From contig NZ_AYKH01000009.1 of the NCBI RefSeq assembly GCF_003788635.1, positions 1 through 64,000 on the forward strand: DNA of 64,000 bases, given 5' to 3'. The notes under the pieces are model-generated. The model saw only the letters and a list, made by a program, of their open reading frames with translations. It was not told the DNA's origin and did no database searches. Position numbers and translations under genes: made by a program. Positions 3,011 to 50,548 of this stretch are shown here, in pieces; within the stretch, counting starts at the first letter, position 1, and every line of letters begins with the position of its first letter. The stretch comes from Salinisphaera orenii subsp. orenii MK-B5. Its GTDB lineage: Bacteria > Pseudomonadota > Gammaproteobacteria > Nevskiales > Salinisphaeraceae.

Positions 3011-4645
3011 ATGACCGCCGACAATCCGTTCGAGAGCCTGCCCCGCAACGCCGCCAATCACGCGGCCCTGTCGCCGACGAGCTTTCTGGCCTGGTCGGGC
3101 GGCGTCTACCCCGACCGCGTCGCATTGGTGCACGGCACGCTGCGCCGGACCTGGGGCGAGACCTATCGCCGCTGCCGCCAGCTGGCCGACGCGCTGACCC
3201 GTCGCGGCATCGGCAAGAGCGACGTGGTCGCGATCATGGCGCCCAATATTCCCGCCACCTACGAGATGCATTTCGCCCCCGCGATGGCCGGCGCGGTGCT
3301 CAACGCGCTGAATGTGCGCCTGGACGCGGACACGCTCGCCTTCATGCTCGATTTCGGCGGCGCGAAGATGGTGATGGTCGACCGCCAGTTCGCGCCCGTG
3401 ATGGCCGAGGCGATCGCCAAGCTCGATACGCCGCCCGTGGTGGTGGATATCGACGACCCGGAATACGACGGCGACGAGGCGCCGATCGGCGAGATCGAAT
3501 ACGAGGCGCTGGTGGCCGAGGGCGATCCGGCCTTCGACTGGCAGCTGCCCGAGGACGAGTGGAACGCGATCTCGCTGAACTTCACCTCCGGCACCACCGG
3601 CAACCCCAAGGGCGTGGTCTATCACCACCGCGGCGCTTATCTGAACGCCATGACCAACGCCATGGCCTGGGACATGCCCACCCACGCGGTGTATCTGTGG
3701 ACGCTGCCGATGTTCCACTGCAACGGCTGGTGCTTTCCCTGGACGATCGCGGCCAAGGCCGGCACCAACGTCTGTCTGCGCCAGGTCGCCGCGGAACCCA
3801 TCATCGACGCCATGGCGCGTCACCGCGTGAGCCATTACTGCGGCGCGCCCATCGTGCATTCCATGCTCGTCAATGCCGACGCGGACCAGCTCGCGCGCAT
3901 CGAGCAGACCGTCCACGGCCTGGTCGCCGGGGCCGCGCCGCCGGCGGCCATGATCGAGGGCATGGAGGGCATCGGCTTCTCGCTGACCCACGTTTACGGC
4001 CTGACCGAGACCTACGGCCCGGCCGCGCTCTGCGCCAAGCACGACGACTGGGCGACGCTGTCGCTGGAAGCGCGGGTGGAGAAGAACGCCCGCCAGGGCG
4101 TGCGCTACCCGACCCAGGCCGCGCTCACGGTCGTCGACCGCGAGACCGGCGCCGAAGTCCCGCACGACGGCGAGACGCTGGGCGAGCTGGTGTTCGCCGG
4201 CAACATCGTCATGAAGGGCTATCTGAAGAACCCGGAGGCCACCGCCGAAGCCTTCGAGGGCGGCTGGTATCACACCGGCGATCTGGGCGTGGTCGAGGCC
4301 GACGGCTATATCCGCATCGCCGACCGGGCCAAGGACGTGATCATCTCCGGCGGCGAGAACATCTCCTCGCTGGAGGTGGAGAGCGTGCTCTCCCGCCACC
4401 CCGCGATCGCCGCCTCCGCGGTCGTCGCCCGGCCCGACGACAAATGGGGCGAGACGCCCTGCGCCTTCATCCAGCTGCGCGAGGGCGAGACCGCGACCGA
4501 GGACGAGATCATCGCCTACTGCCGCGAGCGCATGGCCCATTTCAAGTGCCCGCGGACCGTCGTCTTCGGGCCGCTGCCGACGACCTCCACCGGCAAGGTC
4601 CAGAAGTACGAGCTGCGCACGAGCGCCGCCGAACTGGGCGCCTGA
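3011..4645 (+). CDS. AMP-dependent acyl-CoA synthetase (medium-chain / DmdB-like)
   Basis: A 544-residue ANL-superfamily ligase that activates a carboxylic acid to an acyl-adenylate and then a CoA thioester in the cytoplasm. The P-loop-like motif TSGTTGNPKG lies at residues 192-201, YGLTETYGP follows mid-protein, and YHTGDLG with DRAKDVIISGGENIS marks the hinge to the C-terminal domain. The catalytic lysine sits in TSTGKVQKYELR near the end. The FGAP-like region and overall pattern resemble plant AAE and bacterial 3-methylmercaptopropionyl-CoA or medium-chain fatty acid ligases; the substrate cannot be read from sequence. The ATG at 3011 gives the family length, so a longer frame open from 2561 is not needed. 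Confidence 0.88.
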   Translation: MTADNPFESLPRNAANHAALSPTSFLAWSGGVYPDRVALVHGTLRRTWGETYRRCRQLADALTRRGIGKSDVVAIMAPNIPATYEMHFAPAMAGAVLNALNVRLDADTLAFMLDFGGAKMVMVDRQFAPVMAEAIAKLDTPPVVVDIDDPEYDGDEAPIGEIEYEALVAEGDPAFDWQLPEDEWNAISLNFTSGTTGNPKGVVYHHRGAYLNAMTNAMAWDMPTHAVYLWTLPMFHCNGWCFPWTIAAKAGTNVCLRQVAAEPIIDAMARHRVSHYCGAPIVHSMLVNADADQLARIEQTVHGLVAGAAPPAAMIEGMEGIGFSLTHVYGLTETYGPAALCAKHDDWATLSLEARVEKNARQGVRYPTQAALTVVDRETGAEVPHDGETLGELVFAGNIVMKGYLKNPEATAEAFEGGWYHTGDLGVVEADGYIRIADRAKDVIISGGENISSLEVESVLSRHPAIAASAVVARPDDKWGETPCAFIQLREGETATEDEIIAYCRERMAHFKCPRTVVFGPLPTTSTGKVQKYELRTSAAELGA

Positions 4646-4794
4646 TCCGGGCCGGACGGCCCGACGGCGGGGTGTACGCCGATCCCGTCGCGGGCGTTCG
4701 CCCGGCCTCGGGCCGTGACCCGGACCGGGCGGCCGGGCGCGCCAATCGGCGCTGCGCGGCCCGGCCCGAAGACCGCCCTCGCGACGGCCGAAGC

Positions 4795-4854
4795 GGGCAG
4801 CCCCTGCCGGCAGCGCAAGCTCTCGGGCAGCCCCTGCCGGCAGCGCAAGCTCTC
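4795..4854. repeat. Two perfect tandem copies of a 30 bp GC-rich unit
   Basis: The unit beginning GGGCAGCCCCTGCCGGCAGC is repeated exactly at 4795-4824 and 4825-4854, and a degenerate third start (GGGCGGCCGG) follows at 4855. It lies in the 305 bp gap 4646-4950 between the convergent acyl-CoA ligase and SDR genes. The GGCAGCCCCTGCC core is itself palindromic, so each copy could form a hairpin. No convincing gene or T-tract terminator is visible in the gap. Confidence 0.85.
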
Positions 4855-4950
4855 GGGCGGCCGGTGCCCGCTGCGTCGGCGGCCGCGATTCCCGGCCGTT
4901 GCCCCGCTCCCGCCGCTGCGGGGCCAAGCGCCGGCGCAGCAGGAACGGTT

Positions 4951-5700
4951 TCAGACGCCGCCGTCGACGTCCAGGAAGGCGCCCGTGGTGAACTGGGCCT
5001 CGGTGAGATACAGGATCGCTTCGGCGATGTCCTCGGGCTGGCCGACGCGGCCGAGCGGAATGGCCGCTTTCGCCTGTTCGGGCTTGTCCGGCAGGCCGCC
5101 GCTGGCGTGGATCTCGGTGTCCACGACGCCGGGGCGCACGGCGTTCACGCGGATGCCCTGGCCGGCCGTTTCCTGGGCCAGGCCTTCGGTGAGGGTGTCG
5201 ATCGCGCCCTTGGAAGCGCCGTAGTCGACGTAGGTGCCCGCGCCGCCGCCGCCCCCGGCGTGGCTGGCCGCCGAGGAGACGTTGACGATGGCGCCGCCGG
5301 CACCGCCGCGCTCGTTGCTCATGCGCCGCACGGCCTCGCGGGCGCAGACGAAGGGGCCGACCACGTTCACGCTCATCATGCGGGCGATGCGATCGGCGCT
5401 CATGTCGGCGACCTGGGACGGCTGATCGACGATGCCGGCGTTGTTCACCAGCGCGGTGACGCGCCCGAGCCGATCGTCGACCGTCTCGAAAAGCTGGACC
5501 ACCTCGGATTCGACGGCCATGTCCGCCTGCACCGCGATGGCCGTGCCGCCGTCGGCCTCGATCGCCGAGACCACGCCCTCGGCGGCCTCGCGATTGCCGC
5601 GATAGTTCACGGCCACCGCGTAGCCGTGCTTGGCCGCCATCAGGCAGGTCGCGGCGCCGATGCCGCGGCTGCCGCCGGTCACGATCATGATCTTGTCCAT
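4951..5700 (-). CDS. Short-chain dehydrogenase/reductase (FabG-like)
   Basis: A 249-residue classical SDR. The nucleotide-binding motif TGGSRGIG is at residues 8-15, NNAG at 86-89, the catalytic serine around 142-143 and YGASK (Tyr160, Lys164) in the active site; NAVRPG follows. The enzyme is expected to reduce or oxidise a carbonyl/alcohol with NAD(P)(H) in the cytoplasm; the substrate is unknown. The start at 5700 is supported by AGGAG just upstream. It is convergent with the acyl-CoA ligase and not clearly in an operon. A glycine-rich loop (GGGGGAGTY, about 149-157) before the active-site tyrosine is longer than usual. Confidence 0.9.
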   Translation of the reverse strand: MDKIMIVTGGSRGIGAATCLMAAKHGYAVAVNYRGNREAAEGVVSAIEADGGTAIAVQADMAVESEVVQLFETVDDRLGRVTALVNNAGIVDQPSQVADMSADRIARMMSVNVVGPFVCAREAVRRMSNERGGAGGAIVNVSSAASHAGGGGGAGTYVDYGASKGAIDTLTEGLAQETAGQGIRVNAVRPGVVDTEIHASGGLPDKPEQAKAAIPLGRVGQPEDIAEAILYLTEAQFTTGAFLDVDGGV

Positions 5701-33062: not shown

Positions 33063-34199
33063 TCAGCCGCGGGCGCGCAGCCGGTCGATATCGTGGCCGA
33101 TCTGGGCGGCGACCGTGCGTATCCAGTACAGGGGGTCGGCGAGTGCCGCCTCGGTCGAGCCGGCCCGCTCGACCAGCGTGTAACAGCCGGCGAAGGCGCC
33201 TTCGAGTGCGTCTCGGGCGTCGTCCGCAATGGCGCCGGACAGGAGCGCGGTCGGCACTGGCGCGGCCGCGCGCGCGATCGCCAGCGGCAGTTTGCCGGAC
33301 AGAGTCTGGGCATCCGAGCGGCCTTCGCCGGTGATCACGAGATCGGCGGCGGCCATCTGTCGCTTCAGCCCGGTCAGCTCGATCAGGGTGTCGGCGCCGG
33401 GCTCGAGTGTGGCGCCGAGCGCGGCCAGAGCGAAGCCCAGGCCACCGGCCGCACCGCTGCCGGGCGCATCGACATCGGCGCGTGCTCCTGTGGCCCAGGC
33501 CAGCCGGGCGAAAGCCTGCTCGACCGCGTCGATCTCGGCCGCGGTCAGGCCCTTCTGCGGGCCATAGACCCGGCTCGCCCCGGTCGCACCGAGCAGCGGA
33601 TTGTCGACGTCGCAGAGCACGCGCAGCCGGGTATCGGCCAGCCGCGGATCGATGTCGTCGAGTGACAGCGTATCGAGGGCGAGCAGGCCGGCCAGGGTCG
33701 GCGCGACGTCACGGCCGCCGGCGTCGCGCGCCCGGGCGCCGAGGGCGAGCAGCAGGCCCAGGCCGGCATCATTGCAGGCGCTGCCGCCCAGGCCGACGGC
33801 GATCTCGCGCACGCCGGCGTCCAGCGCCGCACGGATCAGCCGGCCGAGCGCGCCGCTGCCGCGGTCGACCAGTCCCGGGGCGCGGTCACTGCGCTCGATC
33901 AGGGGCAGTCCGAGCACGCGGGCGGATTCGATCGCGCCCAGCCCGGTTTCGGTCCGGTACCAGGGCGCCGTCACGCGTTCGCCGTGGATGGCCTCGACGG
34001 AGGCGTGCTGCCAGCGTCCGGGGCGCGCGGCGGCGATGCAGGCCAGCGTGCCCTCGCCGCCGTCGGCCATGGGCGCTTCGGCGATCGTCGCGTCAGGGCA
34101 GCTGTGGGTCAGGCCCGCGGCCAGCGCCGCTGCGACGTCGGCCGCCTCGGCGCTGCCCTTGTAGCTGTCCGGCGCGATGATCACGGTCGGCGATCTCAT
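33063..34199 (-). CDS. glxK: Glycerate 2-kinase (GlxK/GarK family)
   Basis: A 378-residue glycerate kinase of the bacterial GK-1 type. The N-terminal APDSYKGS (residues 9-16), ADGGEGT, GLGGSACNDAGLG and CDVDNPLLG match the family. It phosphorylates D-glycerate to 2-phosphoglycerate. In this genome it may use glycerate freed from glucosylglycerate by the phosphorylase at 46.7 kb, in addition to glyoxylate or serine metabolism; that link is inference. It is followed by corA and divergent from the FleQ-like gene with only 45 bp between start codons. Confidence 0.94.
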   Translation of the reverse strand: MRSPTVIIAPDSYKGSAEAADVAAALAAGLTHSCPDATIAEAPMADGGEGTLACIAAARPGRWQHASVEAIHGERVTAPWYRTETGLGAIESARVLGLPLIERSDRAPGLVDRGSGALGRLIRAALDAGVREIAVGLGGSACNDAGLGLLLALGARARDAGGRDVAPTLAGLLALDTLSLDDIDPRLADTRLRVLCDVDNPLLGATGASRVYGPQKGLTAAEIDAVEQAFARLAWATGARADVDAPGSGAAGGLGFALAALGATLEPGADTLIELTGLKRQMAAADLVITGEGRSDAQTLSGKLPLAIARAAAPVPTALLSGAIADDARDALEGAFAGCYTLVERAGSTEAALADPLYWIRTVAAQIGHDIDRLRARG

Positions 34200-39491: not shown

Positions 39492-40451
39492 TCAGTCCAG
39501 CGTCATCTGGGCCTCGAACTCGACCAGCAGGTCGTCCCGGCACAGCGGCGCGTGCAGCAGCACGCGCGGGATCGCCGGCAGCCGGGCGTCGAGCACCGCG
39601 ATCACCGTTTCGGCATCGGCCGGGTCGCGCAGATAGGCCTTCACGCACTGCAGATCGCCGGGCTTCATGCGCCGCCCGATGGCCGGCTCCGCGGCCTCGA
39701 TCACCGCGGCGACATTGTCCAGTGCCTCGCCGGCCTGGGCTTCGACGTCGCCGGCGTGCCGGGTGGCGTGGCCGACGATGCTCGCGGTGCCGGAGATCAG
39801 CAGAAAACGGGCCCCGGCCAGATTCGCGACGCCGGCGCGGGCGAAGGCCGGGGCCCGGATGCCGTAGTCCCGCGGATAGCGATAGGCGCTGACCTGGCGC
39901 GGGTTCTCGATCGGCCGGACGCTGTCGCGCCCGAGCAGCGCGTGCATGCGCAGGCCGTGGCGGTGGCCGGCGACCAGCGTGGCCGGGGGCAGCGGCTCGA
40001 TCGCGCCCCCGGGGGCGTCGAGCGCCTCGGCGCGTCCCCGGCAGAAGCGCTGGTAGCGCTGGTCGTCGCCCGCGCCGGCGGTGGGCTCGGACAGCCAGTG
40101 CCAGATGCGCTGCACGCGGGGCAGATCGAGCGCGCGCTGGAGTGCGATCAGCTCCCGGTAGGCGGTCTCGCCGGCCCGCTGTATCGCCGCCGGATCGGCG
40201 GCATCGTCGTCGATGTGGCAGGCGGCGAAGGCGATGTCGGGGCCGCGTCGATACGACCAGCCCGCCATCGTGCCGGTCTCGACCGGGCCGTCATCCGGGC
40301 ACTGCCAGCGTTCGGTCTCGAAATCGCCCGCGATCACCGGCAGCGGGCAGCAGAACACGTCGGCGTCGGGCGCGAAGGCCACGCGGGCGAGCGTCGCGTC
40401 GTCAGCGTCGGCGTCGGCGCGCCAGCGCAGGCCGGTCGGAGCGTCGGGCAT
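39492..40451 (-). CDS. Chorismatase, FkbO/Hyg5/XanB2 family
   Basis: A 319-residue protein with the RidA-like two-domain fold of chorismatases. Family segments include FLISGTASIVGHATRHAGDVEAQ and the N-terminal half with RIWHWLSEPTAG. Members hydrolyse chorismate to 3-hydroxybenzoate, 4-hydroxybenzoate or dihydroxycyclohexadienoate; XanB2 of Xanthomonas supplies 3- and 4-hydroxybenzoate for xanthomonadin pigment and ubiquinone. Which product is made here cannot be read by eye. Its place between two glycosyltransferases resembles pigment or aryl-polyene loci, but no ketosynthases are present. ATG at 40451 is chosen; a longer frame runs into the upstream gene. Confidence 0.78.
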   Translation of the reverse strand: MPDAPTGLRWRADADADDATLARVAFAPDADVFCCPLPVIAGDFETERWQCPDDGPVETGTMAGWSYRRGPDIAFAACHIDDDAADPAAIQRAGETAYRELIALQRALDLPRVQRIWHWLSEPTAGAGDDQRYQRFCRGRAEALDAPGGAIEPLPPATLVAGHRHGLRMHALLGRDSVRPIENPRQVSAYRYPRDYGIRAPAFARAGVANLAGARFLLISGTASIVGHATRHAGDVEAQAGEALDNVAAVIEAAEPAIGRRMKPGDLQCVKAYLRDPADAETVIAVLDARLPAIPRVLLHAPLCRDDLLVEFEAQMTLD

Positions 40452-40521
40452 GCGGGTCAAACGGGCGGATGGCGACGAGCAGTCTAGCCGGCACGCGCGC
40501 ACCGGGCCAGCGCCGGCCGCC

Positions 40522-41703: not shown

Positions 41704-42987
41704 TTAAGGGCCGGCCAGCCGGAGCTCGATTCGGGTGCCTTCCTCGGGGCGGCTGGCCAGGCGGATGCGCCAGCCGTAGCGGTCGGCGACGCGCTTGACC
41801 AGATACAGCCCCAGCCCGAGGCCCGCGCTCGGCCCCGCGCGATAGCCCCGTTCGAAGGCGCGCCGGATCTGTTCAGTCTGCATTCCCTCGCCGTCGTCGG
41901 CCACGGTCAGCAGGCCGTGGGCCAGGGTGATGCGAATGGTGCCGCCGCCGTGGCGCAGCGCATTGCGCAGCAGATTGCCCACCACGATCACCAGCGCGAT
42001 GCGCGGCGCGCTGACGGTGCAGGGATCCAGGGCGGGTACCGAGACGCCGGCGGGCCCCAGCATCGGCCGGTAGGCGTCGATGACCTCGCGAACGACGTGG
42101 TCGGCGCGGCAGGTGGTTTGTGCACCGTCGGCTTCCTGCGGCTCGTCGCGCGCGAGAAACAGCAGCGCCTCGATCAGTTCGGCCATCTGCCGGGCGGCCC
42201 GGTCGATGCGCGTCAGCGGCGGGCTGCCGGCCACGCGCTCGTCCTGCTGGAGGACTTCGATCGCACCCTGGATCACGGCCAGCGGCGTGCGCAGTTCGTG
42301 GCTGGCGTCCGCGGTGAAGCTGCGCTCGCGCTCGACGAAACCGTCCAGCCGGTTCATGAAGCGGTCGAAGGCGTGGGCGATCAGGCCGACCTCGTAGCCG
42401 TCGAAGCGCCGGGCCAGCGGCTCGGTGCCGGTGCCCGGCTCGAGGTCGCCGAGGTGGTCGGCCAGTGCGTTGATGGGCTTGAGGCTGATCCGGGCGATCC
42501 AGATGCCCAGCGGCACCGCCAGCGCCAGCACGATGAGCGCGAAGGCGATCAGCACGATCTTGAACAGCCGCTGGCGATCCTCGATCGCGGTGATGTCGTA
42601 GGCCAGAAACGCGCGCTTGCCTTCGACGACCGTGGTGGCCACGCGATAGGTGCGATCGGAGAACGTCAGGTTGAGCCCGCGCTGATGCGCCGGCAGTCCG
42701 CGCAGCGGCCGGGGCAGAGTGTCGCGCGCATCGGGCTCGACCACGAAGGCGCGAATGGTCGCCGAGTTCGGCAGCGCGGCCTCGCCCTCGCGCGGGTACT
42801 CGGCCTCGAGCTCGTCGAGTTCGTGCGAGACGATGCCGTTGAGCAGGTCGGTCTCCAGCCGCTCGTTGATCGCGAACAGGGCCACCGCCATGAGCGTCGA
42901 CACCACCGCGACGAACAGGGCGAGCGCGGCGGTGACGCGGAACTGAAGGCTGCCCCCGAGACGCCTCAGCCGGGAGTCAGGCCGCAT
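41704..42987 (-). CDS. Sensor histidine kinase
   Basis: A 427-residue inner-membrane kinase: helix 1 (residues 16-40), a periplasmic sensor of about 100 residues, helix 2 (143-166), HAMP, the H-box FTADASHELRTPLAV (His230), the N-box NLLRNALRHGGG, and the G1/G2 boxes VADDGEGM and GLGLGLYLVKRV. It should phosphorylate the response regulator encoded just upstream, with which it overlaps by 11 bases. The signal is unknown. The sensor domain has no recognisable motif and contains many acidic residues (HELDELEAEYPREGE). Confidence 0.92.
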   Translation of the reverse strand: MRPDSRLRRLGGSLQFRVTAALALFVAVVSTLMAVALFAINERLETDLLNGIVSHELDELEAEYPREGEAALPNSATIRAFVVEPDARDTLPRPLRGLPAHQRGLNLTFSDRTYRVATTVVEGKRAFLAYDITAIEDRQRLFKIVLIAFALIVLALAVPLGIWIARISLKPINALADHLGDLEPGTGTEPLARRFDGYEVGLIAHAFDRFMNRLDGFVERERSFTADASHELRTPLAVIQGAIEVLQQDERVAGSPPLTRIDRAARQMAELIEALLFLARDEPQEADGAQTTCRADHVVREVIDAYRPMLGPAGVSVPALDPCTVSAPRIALVIVVGNLLRNALRHGGGTIRITLAHGLLTVADDGEGMQTEQIRRAFERGYRAGPSAGLGLGLYLVKRVADRYGWRIRLASRPEEGTRIELRLAGP

Positions 42988-43657
42988 CCGGATCGACGAG
43001 TCGATAGCCCATGGTCGGCACCGTGTGGAGCAGCGCGCTGGCGAAGGGCTTGTCGATGGCCGCGCGCAGGGCGTGGATGTGCGTGCGCAGCGCCTCGGAG
43101 TCCGGCGGGTGGTCGCCCCAGATCGCGGCTTCCAGTTCGGCGCGGCGCACGAGCTTGGGCGAGGCGCGCATCAGGGTCTCCAGCAGCCGCAGTGCGGTGG
43201 GCGTCAGGCCGATGTGCTGGCCGGCGCGCTCGGCCTGCCAGGTGTCCAGATCCAGCGTGAGGTCGCCCACCTGCAGCAAATGCTGGCTGCGCCGCGGGCC
43301 GCGGTTGCCCAGCGCAGTCAGGCGGGCCTCGAGTTCCAGCAGGGAGAAGGGCTTGATCAGGTAGTCGTCGGCGCCGGAGGAAAATCCTGCCAGCTTGTCC
43401 TCGAGCGTGTCGCGGGCGGTGAGCATCAGGATTGGCGTCTGTTTGTCGGCCTCCTCGCGCAGGCGCGCGCACAGCGCGAAGCCGTCGATGCCCGGCAGCA
43501 TCAGGTCGAGCACGATGGCGTCGAATTCGTGGACCACCGCCAGATGCAGCCCGGTGACGCCGTCGGTGGCGCTGTCCATGACGTGCCCGCGTGCCGACAG
43601 GAACTCCATGATGTTGGCGGCGAGATCCTCGTTGTCCTCGATGACGAGTATGCGCAT
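42977..43657 (-). CDS. OmpR/PhoB family response regulator
   Basis: A 226-residue regulator. The receiver domain has the acidic pair near residues 7-8, phosphoacceptor Asp51 (IVLDLMLPG), and Lys102 in LIKPF; the C-terminal winged helix includes LTPTALRLLETLMR and RTHIHALRAAIDKPF. It is the first gene of a co-directional run: regulator, kinase, GT9, chorismatase, GT-B and small secreted protein. That layout suggests the system controls the envelope or pigment genes that follow, though this is inferred from position. Confidence 0.93.
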   Translation of the reverse strand: MRILVIEDNEDLAANIMEFLSARGHVMDSATDGVTGLHLAVVHEFDAIVLDLMLPGIDGFALCARLREEADKQTPILMLTARDTLEDKLAGFSSGADDYLIKPFSLLELEARLTALGNRGPRRSQHLLQVGDLTLDLDTWQAERAGQHIGLTPTALRLLETLMRASPKLVRRAELEAAIWGDHPPDSEALRTHIHALRAAIDKPFASALLHTVPTMGYRLVDPDAA

Positions 43658-43749
43658 TGCAGCGGGCGGCGAGCGGGTGCTGGCGCCATCTTAATCAATT
43701 CGCGTGCGGCACGTGACCGGCGCGGGCGCCGCTGGTCTACACTGCGGTC

Positions 43750-44610
43750 ATGACCCGACACGGCACGCGCGGCGCACCGATGACGCAGGCGACCCCGCGC
43801 GGGGTGGTGTTCACCGACCTCGACGCCACGCTGCTCGACCACCACGACTACGGCTGGGCGCCCGCCGCCCCCGCGCTGGCGGCGCTGGCGGCACGTGCGG
43901 TGCCCGTGTGCCTGGTCACGAGCAAGACCCGGGCCGAGGTCGCGGCCCTGCGCCGGGCCCTGGACAACGCGCATCCCTTCGCGGTCGAGAACGGCGGTGC
44001 GGTGGCCGTGCCCCGCGGCTACTTCGAGGGCGCGCCCGTGGACGCCGACACCCCCTGCGACTGCATCACTCTCGGGGCGCCCTACGCCGAACTGCGGGCG
44101 CTGGCGGTCGCGCTGCGCGCCGAGCGCGGCTATCGCTTCACCGGGTTCGGCGACATGGACACCGGCGAGGTCGTCGCGGCGACCGGGCTGGACGAGGCCG
44201 CGGCCGCCGCCGCGCGCCAGCGGGAGGCCTCGGAGCCGCTGCTCTGGCGCGACAGCGAGGCCGCACTGGCCGATTTCACCACCCGCGTGGCCGCCGCGGG
44301 TTTCACCACTCGCACCGGTGGCCGCTTCGTGCATATGCTCGGTCGGGCCGGCAAGGGCGACGCGCTGGCCTGGCTGCGGGCGCGCTTTGCCGCCCGGCAG
44401 GGCCCGATTCTTGCTATCGCACTGGGCGACAGTGCCAATGATGCCGACATGCTCGCCGCGGCCGATATCGGCTATTGGGTCGCGCGGCCGGACGGCAGCT
44501 ATCACGCCCCGGCCGGCGGCGCCATCCGGCACGCGCCGGGGGTTGGTCCGGACGGCTGGGCCGCGGCGATCCGCGCGCTGATCGACAACGACGAACTCCA
44601 GGAGCGCTGA
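43750..44610 (+). CDS. gpgP: Mannosyl/glucosyl-3-phosphoglycerate phosphatase (HAD-IIB)
   Basis: A 286-residue HAD phosphatase of the MPGP family. The catalytic motif is FTDLDATLLD (Asp23 nucleophile, Asp25), SKTRAEV is motif II, and ALGDSANDADMLAAAD is the metal-binding motif IV. It removes the phosphate from glucosyl-3-phosphoglycerate (or the mannosyl analogue) to give the compatible solute. It is one base upstream of gpgS, so the two form an operon. The neighbour's family favours the glucosyl substrate. Starts at 43750 and 43780 are both possible. Confidence 0.88.
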   Translation: MTRHGTRGAPMTQATPRGVVFTDLDATLLDHHDYGWAPAAPALAALAARAVPVCLVTSKTRAEVAALRRALDNAHPFAVENGGAVAVPRGYFEGAPVDADTPCDCITLGAPYAELRALAVALRAERGYRFTGFGDMDTGEVVAATGLDEAAAAAARQREASEPLLWRDSEAALADFTTRVAAAGFTTRTGGRFVHMLGRAGKGDALAWLRARFAARQGPILAIALGDSANDADMLAAADIGYWVARPDGSYHAPAGGAIRHAPGVGPDGWAAAIRALIDNDELQER

Positions 44611-44611
44611 C

Positions 44612-45844
44612 ATGGCCGATTTTCACCAGAACGGCATCATCACCACGCTGCACCGGCTCGGCGAGCGCCCCATCGACGCGCTCGAGGCCGAACTGCGGCG
44701 CTTCGGCCGGCGTCGGCCCATGTCGCTGGTGCTGCCGTGTCTGTATTCCGAGCTGGAGGGCGACGCGCTGCCGGCGATCGTCGATCAGCTGTCCCGCGTC
44801 GACTATCTGGCCGAGATCATCATCGGCCTGGACGCCGCCGACGCCGACCAGTTCGCCCACGCCCACGCCTTCTTCCAGCGCCTCGGCCAGCCGCACCGCG
44901 TACTCTGGAACGACGGCCCGCGCCTGAGCGCGCTCTACGACCGGCTCGACGCCGAGTCGCTGGCGCCGGAGCGCCCGGGCAAGGGCGCCAACGTCTGGAA
45001 CTGCATGGGCTATTTCCTGGCCTCGGGCACCGGGCGCGTGCTGGCCATGCACGACTGCGACATCCGCACCTACGACCGCGATCTGCTCGCGCGCCTGTTC
45101 TATCCGATGGTGCATCCGAACTTCACCTACAAGTTCGCCAAGGGCTATTACGCGCGGGTCGCCGGCGGCGAGATCAACGGCCGCGTCGTGCGGCTGTTCA
45201 CCACGCCGCTGCTGCGGGCGCTGATGACGGTGGTCGGCGACCTGGATTATCTGCGCTACATGGACAGTTTCCGCTACCCGCTGTCGGGCGAGTGCGCGAT
45301 GACCGCCTCGGTGGCCGAATCCATCCGCATTCCCAGCGACTGGGGGCTGGAGGTGGGGATCCTGGCGGAAGTGCACCGCAACTACACGCCCAACGCCATC
45401 TGCCAGGTCGACATCGCCGACGCCTACGACCACAAGCACCAGCCGGTCTCGGACCACGAGGCCGACAACGGCCTGGCCAAGATGAGCACCGACATCGCCA
45501 AGGCGCTGTATCGCAAGCTGGCCACCTACGGTGTGGTCCTCACGCCCGAGACCATCCGCACGATCAAGGCCGTCTATCTGCGCAACGCGCTGGACAGCGT
45601 CGAGCGGTTCTATTTCGATGCCCAGATCAACGGCCTGGACTACGACCGCCACAAGGAGGAGAAGACCGTGGAGGTCTTCGTCGAGGCGATCATCCGGGCC
45701 GGCGAACAGTATCTGGCCAATCCGATGGAAGTGCCGTTCATGCCGACATGGAACCGCGTGCGCGCCGCGCTGCCGGAGTTTCTGAGCGACTTTCACGAAG
45801 CGGTCGAGGCCGACCACGCCGATGCGGTCCGGGCCGCGCGCTAG
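44612..45844 (+). CDS. gpgS: Glucosyl-3-phosphoglycerate synthase (GT81)
   Basis: A 410-residue GT-A glycosyltransferase. Family marks are LPCLYSELEGDALP, GKGANVWNCMGY and the metal-binding HDCDIRTYD (Asp148, Asp150); MDSFRYPLSGECAMT and WGLEVGILAEVHRN are typical of GpgS. It transfers glucose from a nucleotide-glucose to 3-phosphoglycerate, the first step of glucosylglycerate synthesis, an osmolyte used under salt stress and nitrogen limitation. The TAG stop is fused to the end of repeat copy C. Confidence 0.92.
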   Translation: MADFHQNGIITTLHRLGERPIDALEAELRRFGRRRPMSLVLPCLYSELEGDALPAIVDQLSRVDYLAEIIIGLDAADADQFAHAHAFFQRLGQPHRVLWNDGPRLSALYDRLDAESLAPERPGKGANVWNCMGYFLASGTGRVLAMHDCDIRTYDRDLLARLFYPMVHPNFTYKFAKGYYARVAGGEINGRVVRLFTTPLLRALMTVVGDLDYLRYMDSFRYPLSGECAMTASVAESIRIPSDWGLEVGILAEVHRNYTPNAICQVDIADAYDHKHQPVSDHEADNGLAKMSTDIAKALYRKLATYGVVLTPETIRTIKAVYLRNALDSVERFYFDAQINGLDYDRHKEEKTVEVFVEAIIRAGEQYLANPMEVPFMPTWNRVRAALPEFLSDFHEAVEADHADAVRAAR

Positions 45845-46133
45845 GGTCTGCCGACACGTCGTACGCACGCCGCGCCGGCCGCCGCATATCGGCTCCTGGA
45901 GGGCGCGGCCCGCCGATCTCGGCGCGCCACGATCGAGACGCGCCACGCCGCAGGCCGCCGACGATGCGTCGTTCGCGGCCGGCCCGTCGGGTCAAGCGTT
46001 CCCTTGCATCAACAGGATGCGACAATCGCGCCCCGTCGCACGCGGGCGCAGCATGGCCGCGTGGTTCGCGCGCCGCCTCGTCTTGCCGCAGAACGGCGCT
46101 CGGCGCGGGCTCGCACGACGTGACGACAGAGCC
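45843..46133 (-). repeat. MITE-like dispersed element, copy C
   Basis: A roughly 290 bp element in reverse orientation and the most diverged of the four. Left end GGTCTGCCGACACGTCGTAC and right end, reversed, GGCTCTGTCGTCACGTCGTG both match the family ends. Core words read on the minus strand include CTGCGGCGTGGCG, CGATCGTGGCGCGCC and TGCGGCAAGACGAGGCG, the last shared with copies A and D. The left end begins inside the gpgS TAG stop. It separates gpgS from the ivy gene, and no gene of its own is supported. Confidence 0.75.
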
Positions 46134-46163
46134 GACTCCATTCCCGCCGAAGAAGACGATGCC

Positions 46164-46607
46164 ATGAACCGCACTCGATTGATCCGCGCCGCCGCGCTGC
46201 TGGCGCTTGTGTCGACGGCCGCCGGCGCCACGGCGGCCGAGGGTGACGAGTCACTCTATCCGAGCGAACTCAGACAGCAGCGGCCGGCGGTCGCCGCGCA
46301 GTATCAGGCGATGATCGAGCCGGTCGCGGACGAGCACGGCTGGGTCGAGGACGGCGGTACCGAGACGCCGATCAGCCGAATCACGCTCGACGGCAGCGAA
46401 TACGTGGTCCTGTCGGGCTGCAAGCCGCACGATTGCTCTGCCGAAAGTCTCGTCACCCTCCTGCGGCCGGGCGGCGACGCGGCCGTCGGCGCGCTGGCCG
46501 TCAATCGGGGTGACGCCGGCTTCGGCCCGAAACGCTCGACGCTGACCTGGCTCGGCGAGCCCGACCGGGCAGAGCGGCGCTTCATTGCGGCCTATCTGTT
46601 CCGCTAG
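46164..46607 (+). CDS. ivy: Ivy family lysozyme inhibitor
   Basis: A 147-residue secreted protein with a signal peptide to about residue 25 (AAGATAAE). It contains the hallmark loop CKPHDC at 86-91, which in E. coli Ivy forms a disulfide-closed loop whose histidine enters the lysozyme active site. It protects peptidoglycan against c-type lysozyme or controls endogenous lytic transglycosylases. Start ATG at 46164 behind a purine-rich GAAGAAGAC. Repeat copy C ends 30 bp upstream, so the element sits in or next to its promoter. Convergent with the GH13 gene. Confidence 0.85.
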   Translation: MNRTRLIRAAALLALVSTAAGATAAEGDESLYPSELRQQRPAVAAQYQAMIEPVADEHGWVEDGGTETPISRITLDGSEYVVLSGCKPHDCSAESLVTLLRPGGDAAVGALAVNRGDAGFGPKRSTLTWLGEPDRAERRFIAAYLFR

Positions 46608-46652
46608 CGGATGCCGGCGGCGCGGGGCGCATGCGGCCTCTGATCGCGGGCG

Positions 46653-48368
46653 TCAGTCGCTGATCCAGGCCACCTCGTAGGGATCGAGGCGGATCGCGCG
46701 GCTGGAGCCGCTGATCTCGGTGGCCGCGGTGACGTTGCGGCGCACCCGCGCCTCCGGCAGGACGTGGACCGGTAGCTGGACCGGACGGTCGGTGACGTTG
46801 TGCACCGCCAGCAGGGTCTGGTCGCCGCGCCGGCGCTGGAGCGCGAACAGCGACGGGCCCAGGTCGACGACCTGCTGCGCGGCTTCGGGATGAAAGGCCG
46901 GCTGGCGCGCGCGGATGGCCAGCAGTCGCTTGAGCCGCGCGAACACCCGGGCGTGCGCGCCGTCGGCGCCGAGCTTGTACTCCAGCTCGCCCATGTCCCA
47001 GCGGCGTCGGTTGATCGAACGGTAGCGCCCGCTGTGCTCCACGCCGGCGCGGTCGTTGTGGGTGGCGGTCAGGCTGTGGAAATACAGCGCCGGGATGCCG
47101 GCCAGCGCCATCGAGATCGCCTGGCTGCAGATGAAGCGGTCCATATGTGCGTTGCTGTCGTGTTCCTCCGGCGCCGCGAGCAGGTCGTAGTAGGCGATGT
47201 TGAGCTCGTAGGGCTGGTGCGAGCCGTCGGCGACCGCGCGCGTGGAGACGAAGCCGCCGCGTTCGCGGGTCGCGTCGACGAGCGTGGTGATGGCCTCGGC
47301 GTCGAGGATGCCTTCCACCGCGCGCAGGCCCACGCCGTCGTGGCTGGCGGTGAAGTTCAGGAAATGACAGCCCTCGGGCAGCGCTGGCAGCGTCTTCGCC
47401 CACGCCGTGAGCGCGCTCGCTTCGCCGGTGAGCAGGGCGTGCGAGGCCAGCGGCGGCAGCGCGAACTGATAGGCCACATGCGCCTCGTCGCCGTCGACGA
47501 GATAGGAGATGTTCTCCGCATGCGGGACGTTGGTCTCGGTGATCAGCTGCACGCCCGGCGCGTAGTGGTCGAGCAGGGCGCGCAGGAACTTGACCAGGCG
47601 ATGCGTCTGCGGCAGGTGGATGCAGGGCGTGCCGAGTTCCTTCCAGAGAAAGGCCACCGCATCCAGGCGCAGCAGCCGGGCGCCCCGGGCCACGTACTCG
47701 AAGATGATGTCGATGAATTCGTCGAGCACCCTCGGGTTGGAGAAATTCAGGTCGATCTGATCCTCCGAGAAGGTCGCCCAGAGATGCCGCGTGCCGCGGG
47801 CGGTGGCGACTTCGGCCAGCAGCGGCGTGCTGCGCGGGCGCACCACCGCGCGCAGGTCGGTCTTCGGATCCACCTCGATGAAATAGTCGCGGCCGGGATC
47901 GGTGTCGCCCAGGTAGTTGGCGAACCACTGGCCCTTGCGGGAGGCGTGGTTGAGCACCAGATCGAACATCAGCGGGTGATCCGCGGCCAGGGCGCTGACG
48001 TCGTCCCAGTCGCCGAGTTCGGGATGGACGGCGCGATAGTCCATGACCGAGAAGCCGTCGTCCGAACTCTCGGGAAAGAACGGCAGGATGTGGATCGCCG
48101 AGATTGCGTCGGCCAGATGCGCGGCCATGAACGCGCGCAGCGTGGCCAGCGGCGATTCCCCCGGACGCTGCACGATGTCGGCATAGGTGATGAGCACGTT
48201 GAAGGCGGCGTCGATCGACGTCTCGCTGGCGATCGGCAGGCCGTGACGCACCGCGGCGGCGGCCGCGGCATCGACGCATTCGGCCGCCGCGCGCTCGCCG
48301 TAGAGCGGGCTCAGCCAGTCCTGGAGGTCGTCGCGGCTCGGCGCCGCGGTTTCATTCGCATCGAGCAT
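46653..48368 (-). CDS. GH13_18 sucrose-phosphorylase-like enzyme, probable glucosylglycerate phosphorylase
   Basis: A 571-residue retaining glycoside phosphorylase of GH13 subfamily 18. The nucleophile is in RLLRLDAVAF (Asp236), the acid/base in LITETNVPH (Glu278) and the stabiliser in NFTASHDGVG (Asp344). The subfamily includes sucrose, sucrose-6-phosphate, glucosylglycerol and glucosylglycerate phosphorylases. Being encoded next to gpgP-gpgS favours glucosylglycerate, which would yield glucose 1-phosphate plus glycerate. ATG at 48368 gives the usual length; a longer frame upstream is not needed. Divergent from mnmG. Confidence 0.85.
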   Translation of the reverse strand: MLDANETAAPSRDDLQDWLSPLYGERAAAECVDAAAAAAVRHGLPIASETSIDAAFNVLITYADIVQRPGESPLATLRAFMAAHLADAISAIHILPFFPESSDDGFSVMDYRAVHPELGDWDDVSALAADHPLMFDLVLNHASRKGQWFANYLGDTDPGRDYFIEVDPKTDLRAVVRPRSTPLLAEVATARGTRHLWATFSEDQIDLNFSNPRVLDEFIDIIFEYVARGARLLRLDAVAFLWKELGTPCIHLPQTHRLVKFLRALLDHYAPGVQLITETNVPHAENISYLVDGDEAHVAYQFALPPLASHALLTGEASALTAWAKTLPALPEGCHFLNFTASHDGVGLRAVEGILDAEAITTLVDATRERGGFVSTRAVADGSHQPYELNIAYYDLLAAPEEHDSNAHMDRFICSQAISMALAGIPALYFHSLTATHNDRAGVEHSGRYRSINRRRWDMGELEYKLGADGAHARVFARLKRLLAIRARQPAFHPEAAQQVVDLGPSLFALQRRRGDQTLLAVHNVTDRPVQLPVHVLPEARVRRNVTAATEISGSSRAIRLDPYEVAWISD

Positions 48369-48476
48369 GCGCCATGTGATCCAAGAGTTGTGCCAGCAGC
48401 CATTATGACGGCCGTCGTGCGGCCTCACGACCGTGGGCGCAGGTCTGCGGCCGCACGTCGCCGCTCCGGGCCCTTG

Positions 48477-48499
48477 ACGGTGCATCGCGGATGCACCGT
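48477..48499. promoter_or_regulatory. Perfect 9 bp inverted repeat in the GH13/mnmG divergent region
   Basis: ACGGTGCAT-CGCGG-ATGCACCGT is a perfect palindrome with a 5 base spacer in the 266 bp divergent gap. It lies 109 bp upstream of the phosphorylase ATG and 136 bp upstream of mnmG. It lacks a T-tract, so an operator is more likely than a terminator. The regulator is unknown. Confidence 0.5.
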
Positions 48500-48540
48500 T
48501 CGCGCGCACGCCGGCTGACAGGCGCGCCCGGCCGGGGCCG

Positions 48541-48570
48541 TTAGGGTCGCCGCGGGCTGGGCGTTATACT
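48541..48570 (+). promoter_or_regulatory. Candidate sigma70 promoter of mnmG
   Basis: A TTAGGG (48541-48546) and TATACT (48565-48570) pair with an 18 base spacer lies 65 bp upstream of the mnmG ATG. The -10 is a good match, the -35 poor. Confidence 0.4.
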
Positions 48571-48634
48571 GTGCGGTCGACTCCAGCCATCGCGCCGGTC
48601 GCGGACCGCGGCCCGGCAGGACGACAACGCCCGC

Positions 48635-50548
48635 ATGAGCAGCCAGACCCATTTCGACGTCATCGTCGTCGGCGGCGGCCACGCCGGCACCGAGGCCGCG
48701 ACCGCGGCCGCCCGGGCCGGCGCGCGCACGCTGCTGCTGACCGACAACATCGAGACCATCGGCCAGATGTCCTGCAACCCGGCCATCGGCGGCATCGGCA
48801 AGGGCCATCTCGTGCGCGAGATCGACGCCCTCGGCGGCGTCATGGGTCGTGCGGCCGATCGCGGCGGGATCCAGTTTCGCCGGCTCAACGCGCGCAAGGG
48901 CCCGGCCGTGCGCGCCACCCGCGCCCAGGCCGACCGCGCGCTCTACAAGGCGGCGGTGCGGTCGATGGTCGAGAACCAGCCGAACCTGCATCTGTTCCAG
49001 CAGTCGGTGGCCGATCTGGTCGTCGACGATCATCGCGTGACCGGCGTGCAGACCGCCATGGGCCTCACGTTCCACGCGCCCGCCGTGGTGCTCACGGTCG
49101 GTACCTTCCTTGGCGGCACCATCCATGTCGGCCACAAGCGCTTCGGCGGCGGTCGCGCCGGGGATGCGCCCTCGAACGCGCTCGCCGAGCGCCTGCGCGC
49201 GCTCGATCTGCCGGTGGGCCGGCTCAAGACCGGCACGCCGCCGCGCATCGACGCCAAGACCATCGACTATGCGCAGCTCGCCGAACAGCCGGGTGACGAC
49301 CCGGCGCCGGTGTTCTCGTTCATGGGCCGGCGCGCCGAGCATCCGCGCCAGGTGAGCTGTCATATCACCTACACCAACGCGCGTACCCACGCGATCATCC
49401 GCGACAACATCGGCGAGTCGGCGATGTACTCGGGCCGGATCGACTCGGTCGGGCCGCGCTACTGCCCGTCGATCGAGGACAAGGTGGTGCGCTTCGCCGA
49501 CAAGGATTCGCACCAGATCTTCATCGAGCCGGAAGGCCTGGAGGCGGCCGAGGTCTATCCGAACGGGATTTCCACCAGCCTGTCGTTCGAGACCCAGCTC
49601 GCCGTGGTGCGCTCGATCGCCGGCTTCGAGAACGCGCATATCACCCGCCCCGGCTATGCGATCGAGTACGACTATTTCGACCCGCGCGCGCTGCGGCCCA
49701 CGCTGGAAACCAAGGCGCTGGCCGGGCTGTACTTCGCCGGCCAGATCAACGGCACCACCGGCTACGAGGAAGCCGCGGCCCAGGGCCTGCTGGCCGGCAT
49801 CAACGCCGCGCGTGCCGTCGCCGGCAAGAATGGCTGGTCGCCGGCGCGTCACGAGGCCTATCTCGGCGTGCTGGTCGACGATCTGGTCACGCGCGGCACG
49901 CTCGAGCCCTATCGCATGTTCACATCCCGGGCCGAACACCGTCTGCTGCTGCGCGAGGACAACGCCGACGCGCGCCTCACGCCGATCGGGCGCGAACTGG
50001 GGCTGGTCGATGACGCCCGCTGGGCGGCCTTCGAGGCCGGGCGTGACGCCGTGGCGGCCGAGCAGGCGCGCCTGGCCGCGATCACGGTCAAGCCGGCGGA
50101 TCTGGGCGCCGACGGCGGCGCGGCGTGGCTGGGCGGCGCGCTCAAGCAGGCCACGGCCGCCGCCGATCTGCTCAAGCGCCCGGGCGTGGATCATGCCCAC
50201 GTGGCTGCGATCGCGTCGGTGGGCGCGCCGGTGCTCGATCATCTCGACGCCGAAGCGGCCGAGGCCGTGTGCGAACAGGTCGAGATCCAGGCCAGGTACG
50301 CGGGTTACATCGATCGCCAGAACGCGGAGATCGACAAGACCCGCGCGCACGAGGCGACGGAGTTGCCCGCCGATCTTGACTACGCGGCCGTGTCCGGGCT
50401 GTCGAACGAGTTGCAGGGCAAGCTCGAGGCCGTGCGCCCGGCCACGCTCGGCCAGGCGGCGCGTATTCCGGGCATGACCCCGGCGGCGGTCTCGCTGCTG
50501 CTGGTGCATCTGAAAAAGACCGGCGCGGCCCTGGCCAAGAGCGCCTAG
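48635..50548 (+). CDS. mnmG: tRNA uridine-5-carboxymethylaminomethyl(34) synthesis enzyme MnmG
   Basis: A 637-residue FAD protein (GidA). The dinucleotide-binding [12 protein letters not shown] is at 10-21, followed by the family signature [23 protein letters not shown] and [12 protein letters not shown]. With MnmE it modifies the wobble uridine of several tRNAs. The C-terminal MnmE-binding domain ([36 protein letters not shown]) is complete. In many gammaproteobacteria it is followed by rsmG and parAB; here it is followed by opp genes, so the usual gidAB linkage is broken. Confidence 0.97.

Follow-up and report, generated by a model that had tools for sequence, protein, structure and literature searches.

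Glucosylglycerate phosphorylases (GGaP; EC 2.4.1.352) are described from Escherichia coli (YcjM), Meiothermus silvanus and Spirochaeta thermophila. In a review, GGaP genes are said to be "frequently accompanied" by genes for glycerate kinase, GpgS or GpgP, and it is suggested that the enzyme might regulate intracellular levels, its exact metabolic function being without experimental confirmation (PMC7178133). A second review also associates GGaP with genes of glucosylglycerate metabolism (PMC11009771). The association of synthesis and phosphorolysis genes is therefore already known in its general form, since the review states it; no paper naming Salinisphaera together with glucosylglycerate was found in the open-licence literature. 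We analyzed a stretch of 64,000 nucleotides (the window) from Salinisphaera orenii subsp. orenii MK-B5 (contig NZ_AYKH01000009.1, positions 1 to 64,000), in which a GH13_18 phosphorylase gene lies close to gpgP and gpgS. Judged by sequence comparison, this is very probably a halophile's ordinary osmolyte locus for glucosylglycerate, with the GH13_18 enzyme as its GGaP, and a well supported halophile case in which osmolyte synthesis is linked with phosphorolytic breakdown. An earlier note on this DNA had placed gpgP and gpgS next to a GH13_18 phosphorylase, as the open reading frames (ORFs) and family matches confirm, and our results bear this reading out; the locus is of a known kind. The predicted pathway genes are:

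43780..44610, + strand: gpgP, predicted glucosyl-3-phosphoglycerate phosphatase (HAD-IIB, MPGP family), from TIGR01486 and comparison with relatives
44612..45844, + strand: gpgS, predicted glucosyl-3-phosphoglycerate synthase, from its NF040724 match and a match to GpgS structures
46653..48368, - strand: GH13_18 predicted GGaP, from acceptor marks and similarity to YcjM
33063..34199, - strand: glycerate kinase of the PF02595 family, from PF02595 and TIGR00045

The identity of the phosphorylase is mainly indicated by its acceptor site. Two marks of GGaP are given in PMC7178133: the tip of beta strand 5 carries (T/S)ETN, and loop A has a Glu at the position that is Gln in most other clades. In the window enzyme, TETN occupies residues 277-280 and loop A reads ..GSHQPYELN, with Tyr387-Glu388. 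YcjM, annotated as glucosylglycerate phosphorylase, has TETN and ..GTRSPYEIN and shares 40% identity with the window enzyme over 566 columns. Asp236, Glu278 and Asp344, which we take to be the GH13 nucleophile, acid/base and transition-state aspartate, are invariant in all ten aligned GGaP-type sequences, including YcjM. The window enzyme thus has TETN, the loop A Glu, the catalytic residues and full-length similarity in common with the known GGaP, the known enzyme compared being YcjM. None of the loop A motifs N[LV]D[ILV]YQ, GFDVHQ, KxxYYQ and VGAIYQ occurs in the window enzyme, and the sucrose phosphorylase model TIGR03852 scored 190 bits, under its cut-off of 334.4. The earlier note had proposed comparing the acceptor site with the characterized types and had named a match to sucrose or glucosylglycerol phosphorylases as the outcome that would speak against it; that match was looked for and did not occur. 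On these acceptor marks we rejected identity as a sucrose, sucrose 6-phosphate or glucosylglycerol phosphorylase. The source genome holds a single GGaP match.

The same marks were followed through an alignment of 111 rows. TETN and YE were found in all 80 named relatives, which here and in every count out of 80 below are the best 80 of at least 566 scan matches and therefore a non-random sample; at least three of these rows (L054-L056) duplicate other rows of the alignment. The scan patterns were NF[TLI]ASHDG and [DN]EAHx[AVI]Y[QN]F, and since both sit elsewhere in the protein, the two marks were not directly selected. Both marks are also present in 24 of the remaining 31 rows, including the window protein and YcjM. 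Another row has TETN and reaches its contig end before loop A, one (L030) is a different protein, and five are GH13_18 paralogues from the same order (L025-L029) with PE[IV]H and VGAIYQ and a Gln in the Glu388 column. VGAIYQ is the published loop A mark of glucosylglycerol phosphorylase (PMC7178133). We inferred a tree of 108 rows by a quick search, rooted on the five paralogues and with support from the Shimodaira-Hasegawa-like approximate likelihood ratio test (SH-aLRT) only, and in it a long branch separates all GGaP-type rows from these paralogues.

The predicted synthesis enzymes fit the same pathway. In a profile search, GpgP scored 223.9 bits against TIGR01486, above the cut-off of 164.75; its three PDB matches (1xvi, 3ztw, and 1wzc) are chains named (putative) mannosyl-3-phosphoglycerate phosphatase. 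The gpgS product matched GpgS_Meth (NF040724) over residues 3-403 with 358.5 bits (E 4.1e-107) and resembled solved GpgS structures weakly (best E 1.7e-8), its DCD aligning with their DSD. The gap between gpgP and gpgS is one base, with gpgS second, and gpgS is single-copy in the source genome. In the proposed pathway, GpgS would use a sugar nucleotide to glucosylate 3-phosphoglycerate, and dephosphorylation of the product by GpgP would yield glucosylglycerate. Once the cell can dispense with the solute, the GH13_18 enzyme would cleave it with phosphate to release glucose 1-phosphate and D-glycerate. The PF02595 kinase would then return the glycerate to glycolysis, probably as 2-phosphoglycerate. 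The enzyme activities, the direction of flux in the cell and any two-component regulation are what we infer from the genes.

GGaP is also linked with gpgS and gpgP well outside the genus. Twenty-three relatives had a GGaP-type match and 20 of their loci were compared. All 20 have gpgS next to GGaP (only part of it in L033, where the contig terminates inside gpgS), and gpgP is present in 18, the other two being L033, cut by the contig end, and L049, which has no match. GGaP is convergent to gpgS in all 13 other genus members and in the sister genus (L045), and it is codirectional with gpgS, gpgS first, in the six loci of other families (L046-L051). Both gpgS (at least 100 bits) and gpgP occur in the available flanks of 42 of the 80 named loci; GGaP is codirectional in 21 of these, convergent in 19 and divergent in two.

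These arrangements resemble known clusters to different degrees. In the Marinobacter/Alteromonas type (GLYK-gpgP-gpgS-GGaP), the same pathway genes lie side by side as in the window. GGaP follows gpgS with a gap of less than 500 bp in 21 of 21 such codirectional loci, and a GLYK-type kinase is present in 11, whereas in the window GGaP is convergent, a PF02595 kinase lies about 9.6 kb from gpgP, and no GLYK-type kinase was found in the source genome. The Halomonadaceae loci (Halomonas, Kushneria, Salinicola) have convergent GGaP and gpgS-gpgP, with the same layout and pathway genes as the window, which means that Salinisphaera is not alone in having the convergent layout; the spacing between gpgS and GGaP in convergent loci ranges from less than 500 bp to more than 2 kb.

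Several observations weigh against the assignment as a glucosylglycerate osmolyte locus. The GpgS match lies under its equivalog cut-off of 700, and a Pfam search with the gpgS product gave nothing at E 0.001. YcjM belongs to another operon, where its neighbors include transporter and kojibiose phosphorylase genes but not gpgS, unlike the window GGaP, which has gpgS and gpgP nearby. In 38 of the 80 named loci the gpgS and gpgP pair is missing from the available flanks, and 24 of these have at least 5 kb on both sides, indicating that the GGaP marks do not require nearby synthesis genes. Finally, the GGaP of other families in the same order fall elsewhere in the tree.

With respect to this last point, the Salinisphaeraceae GGaP (L016-L023 and the window) form a clade apart from those of the other same-order families, which group with Marinobacter and Alteromonas. 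From the tree, a separate acquisition of GGaP in the Salinisphaeraceae and in these families is possible. Five genomes of the order (G039, G023, G025, G035, and G036) have no GGaP-type match and instead carry the VGAIYQ paralogues, L025-L029, and thus related genera may use different glucosyl osmolytes.

We weighed four other explanations. The GH13_18 enzyme could be a bifunctional, sucrose-active GGaP like Xylanimonas XpGP, since such GH13_18 enzymes are described (PMC11009771). We consider this improbable: the window enzyme carries both marks of the strict GGaP, and its full-length identity of 40% is to YcjM, which is reported to be unable to phosphorolyse sucrose (PMC7178133). Somewhat less probable still is that the gpgS and gpgP pair serves mannosylglycerate, a glycolipid or a polysaccharide rather than a free osmolyte. 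The mycobacterial GpgS serves polysaccharide synthesis, which counts for this explanation, as do the models matched by GpgP, named for mannosyl-3-phosphoglycerate phosphatase. However, the synthase resembles GpgS proteins and the adjoining phosphorylase is of the glucosylglycerate type. Also counting against it, the L046 cluster adjoins a BCCT transporter gene (PF02028) and that of L047 one of similar sequence.

It is very improbable that the enzyme is a chance neighbor of gpgPS acting on sucrose, sucrose 6-phosphate or glucosylglycerol. The best PDB matches of the window enzyme are indeed named glucosylglycerol or sucrose phosphorylase, and none is named glucosylglycerate phosphorylase among the 60 listed of 116, although this naming may only reflect which structures have been solved. 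The loop A motifs of those enzymes are absent while TETN and the Glu are present, and the gpgS linkage is seen again in distant genera. Hardly conceivable is a GH13_18 enzyme of the myxobacterial type, whose substrate is unknown. The loop A of that type, GEXRPYE (PMC7178133), is close to ..GSHQPYE, but its acid/base site is AETD where the window enzyme has TETN, and YcjM, a strict GGaP by the same source, likewise has PYE.

The PF02595 kinase scored 354.6 bits against PF02595 (cut-off 23.3) and 321.6 bits against TIGR00045 (cut-off 168.45). The earlier note had called it a glycerate 2-kinase located 10 kb away. The kinase family stands, and so does the linkage in the genus, where the kinase is on the contig and strand of GGaP in 10 of 13 other genomes at a distance of 6.9-12.5 kb (on another contig in the remaining three). 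The "2-kinase" label follows only from the family, because the match to the glycerate 2-kinase equivalog NF007668 (230.2 bits, cut-off 686) and that to the glycerate 3-kinase equivalog are both under their cut-offs. According to PMC4378991, both E. coli glycerate kinases yield 2-phosphoglycerate and the Arabidopsis enzyme yields 3-phosphoglycerate; from its family we would infer 2-phosphoglycerate as the product of the window kinase. In the window the kinase gene is 12.5 kb from GGaP and about 9.6 kb from gpgP, and it is the single PF02595 kinase of the source genome. Genus-wide synteny alone could cause this linkage. Based on its family and position, the PF02595 kinase is likely the partner that handles released glycerate.

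Other loci have a different kinase. A P-loop kinase related to that of L046 and L050 adjoins gpgP in 12 of the 80 named loci, and such GLYK-type genes also adjoin gpgP or gpgS in L046, L047, L049 (by eye), and L050. The L050 kinase, the only one of these proteins run against the PDB, matches the solved D-glycerate 3-kinases 7xpc and 6ckg. The PF22422 (MGH1-like) family, which presumably covers glucosylglycerate hydrolases, has no match in the source genome and weak matches in two of nine other genus genomes searched. With a single gpgS, a single GGaP and no match of the PF22422 or GLYK type, the genome is a simple one for testing the role of GGaP. There are also three ectoine-synthase matches above cut-off (contigs C6, C12, and C44), which makes it probable that the organism has several osmolytes, glucosylglycerate among them.

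The earlier note had described the locus as compact and as allowing rapid adjustment of osmolyte levels. The genes do adjoin, yet an Ivy-family gene that the note leaves out lies between gpgS and GGaP, GGaP is convergent, and gpgP probably starts at 43780 rather than 43750. The gpgP ORF as called is 43750-44610 (+), with the ATG at 43750 in frame. In the close relative G012 (locus L032), whose GGaP has 100% identity (rounded) to the window GGaP over 571 residues, the counterpart of this ATG lies 29 bases before the inner ATG and is therefore out of frame with gpgP, making 43780 the likelier start. Salinisphaera halophila YIM 95161 (L054) also has a GGaP of 100% identity (rounded) over residues 1-571. 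GGaP lies on the opposite strand from gpgPS with its own upstream region. Because of this convergence, gpgPS and GGaP are not one operon, and a single operon for synthesis and breakdown is ruled out. No shared operon supports "rapid adjustment". The features adjacent to the pathway genes are:

42977..43657, - strand: OmpR-type response regulator (PF00072 and PF00486)
41704..42987, - strand: sensor histidine kinase of the same two-component system (HisKA, HATPase_c)
about 46164-46607, + strand: Ivy-family (inhibitor of vertebrate lysozyme) gene (PF08816)

The two-component system is the only part of the locus that might be new. Its response regulator and histidine kinase genes are divergent from gpgP, an adjacency confined to this genus among the loci examined. 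In the kinase, HisKA and HATPase_c are above cut-off and HAMP slightly under, and the gene is conserved beside the regulator. A regulator match adjoins gpgP in 11 of the 13 other genus loci. The other two, L033 and L043, are cut by contig ends; in L043 (G013) a transposase-like ORF (57-1154, by eye) directly adjoins gpgP and is followed by the contig end, and the regulator gene is on another contig. No regulator match is next to gpgP in the sister genus (L045) or in the six other-family loci. A different regulator-like gene (4423-5109), only weakly related to the window regulator, lies in L045 on the far side of GGaP. A second close regulator (60% identity) is encoded on another contig of the source genome.

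The only close two-component matches (85-99%) in the 80 named loci are those of L054-L056, which are duplicates of genus loci. Regulator matches of 34-36%, accompanied by a kinase match, occur in L096 and L103, neither of which has gpgS in its available flanks, and L109 has a short match. No close match was found in the flanks of the Halomonadaceae loci; some of these have little DNA past gpgP, and such short flanks mean that absence of the system from the named loci is not proven. A cyanobacterial osmoregulation network has been predicted with gpgS, gpgP and two-component systems, and the passages describing it do not place a system next to gpgP (PMC2874817). Between the regulator and gpgP, a ATCTTAAT-like stretch occurs in some but not all of 12 intergenic regions, and the start codon supplies the only fully conserved columns of their alignment; for both reasons, no regulatory site is claimed. 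That gpgP is regulated by the adjacent system is a guess, and a dedicated OmpR-type system controlling glucosylglycerate synthesis in Salinisphaera seems to us a tentative, rather doubtful idea. If true, genes for a sensor, synthesis and phosphorolytic recycling would be together at one locus.

Within 43400-48800, searches found no promoter-like sites (mean 0.3 in shuffles) and two terminator-like sites (mean 1.6 in shuffles). The Rfam search of the window gave no matches, and the tRNA search found none. The Ivy gene (63.4 bits against PF08816, cut-off 21) is probably unrelated to the glucosylglycerate pathway; it is placed between gpgS and GGaP in 8 of the 13 other genus loci. L036 has a GGDEF diguanylate cyclase gene at this interval. 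Further along the window, 39492-40487 (-) encodes a chorismatase-like protein (PF21168, FkbO/Hyg5-like N-terminal), with matches near the locus in several genus loci.

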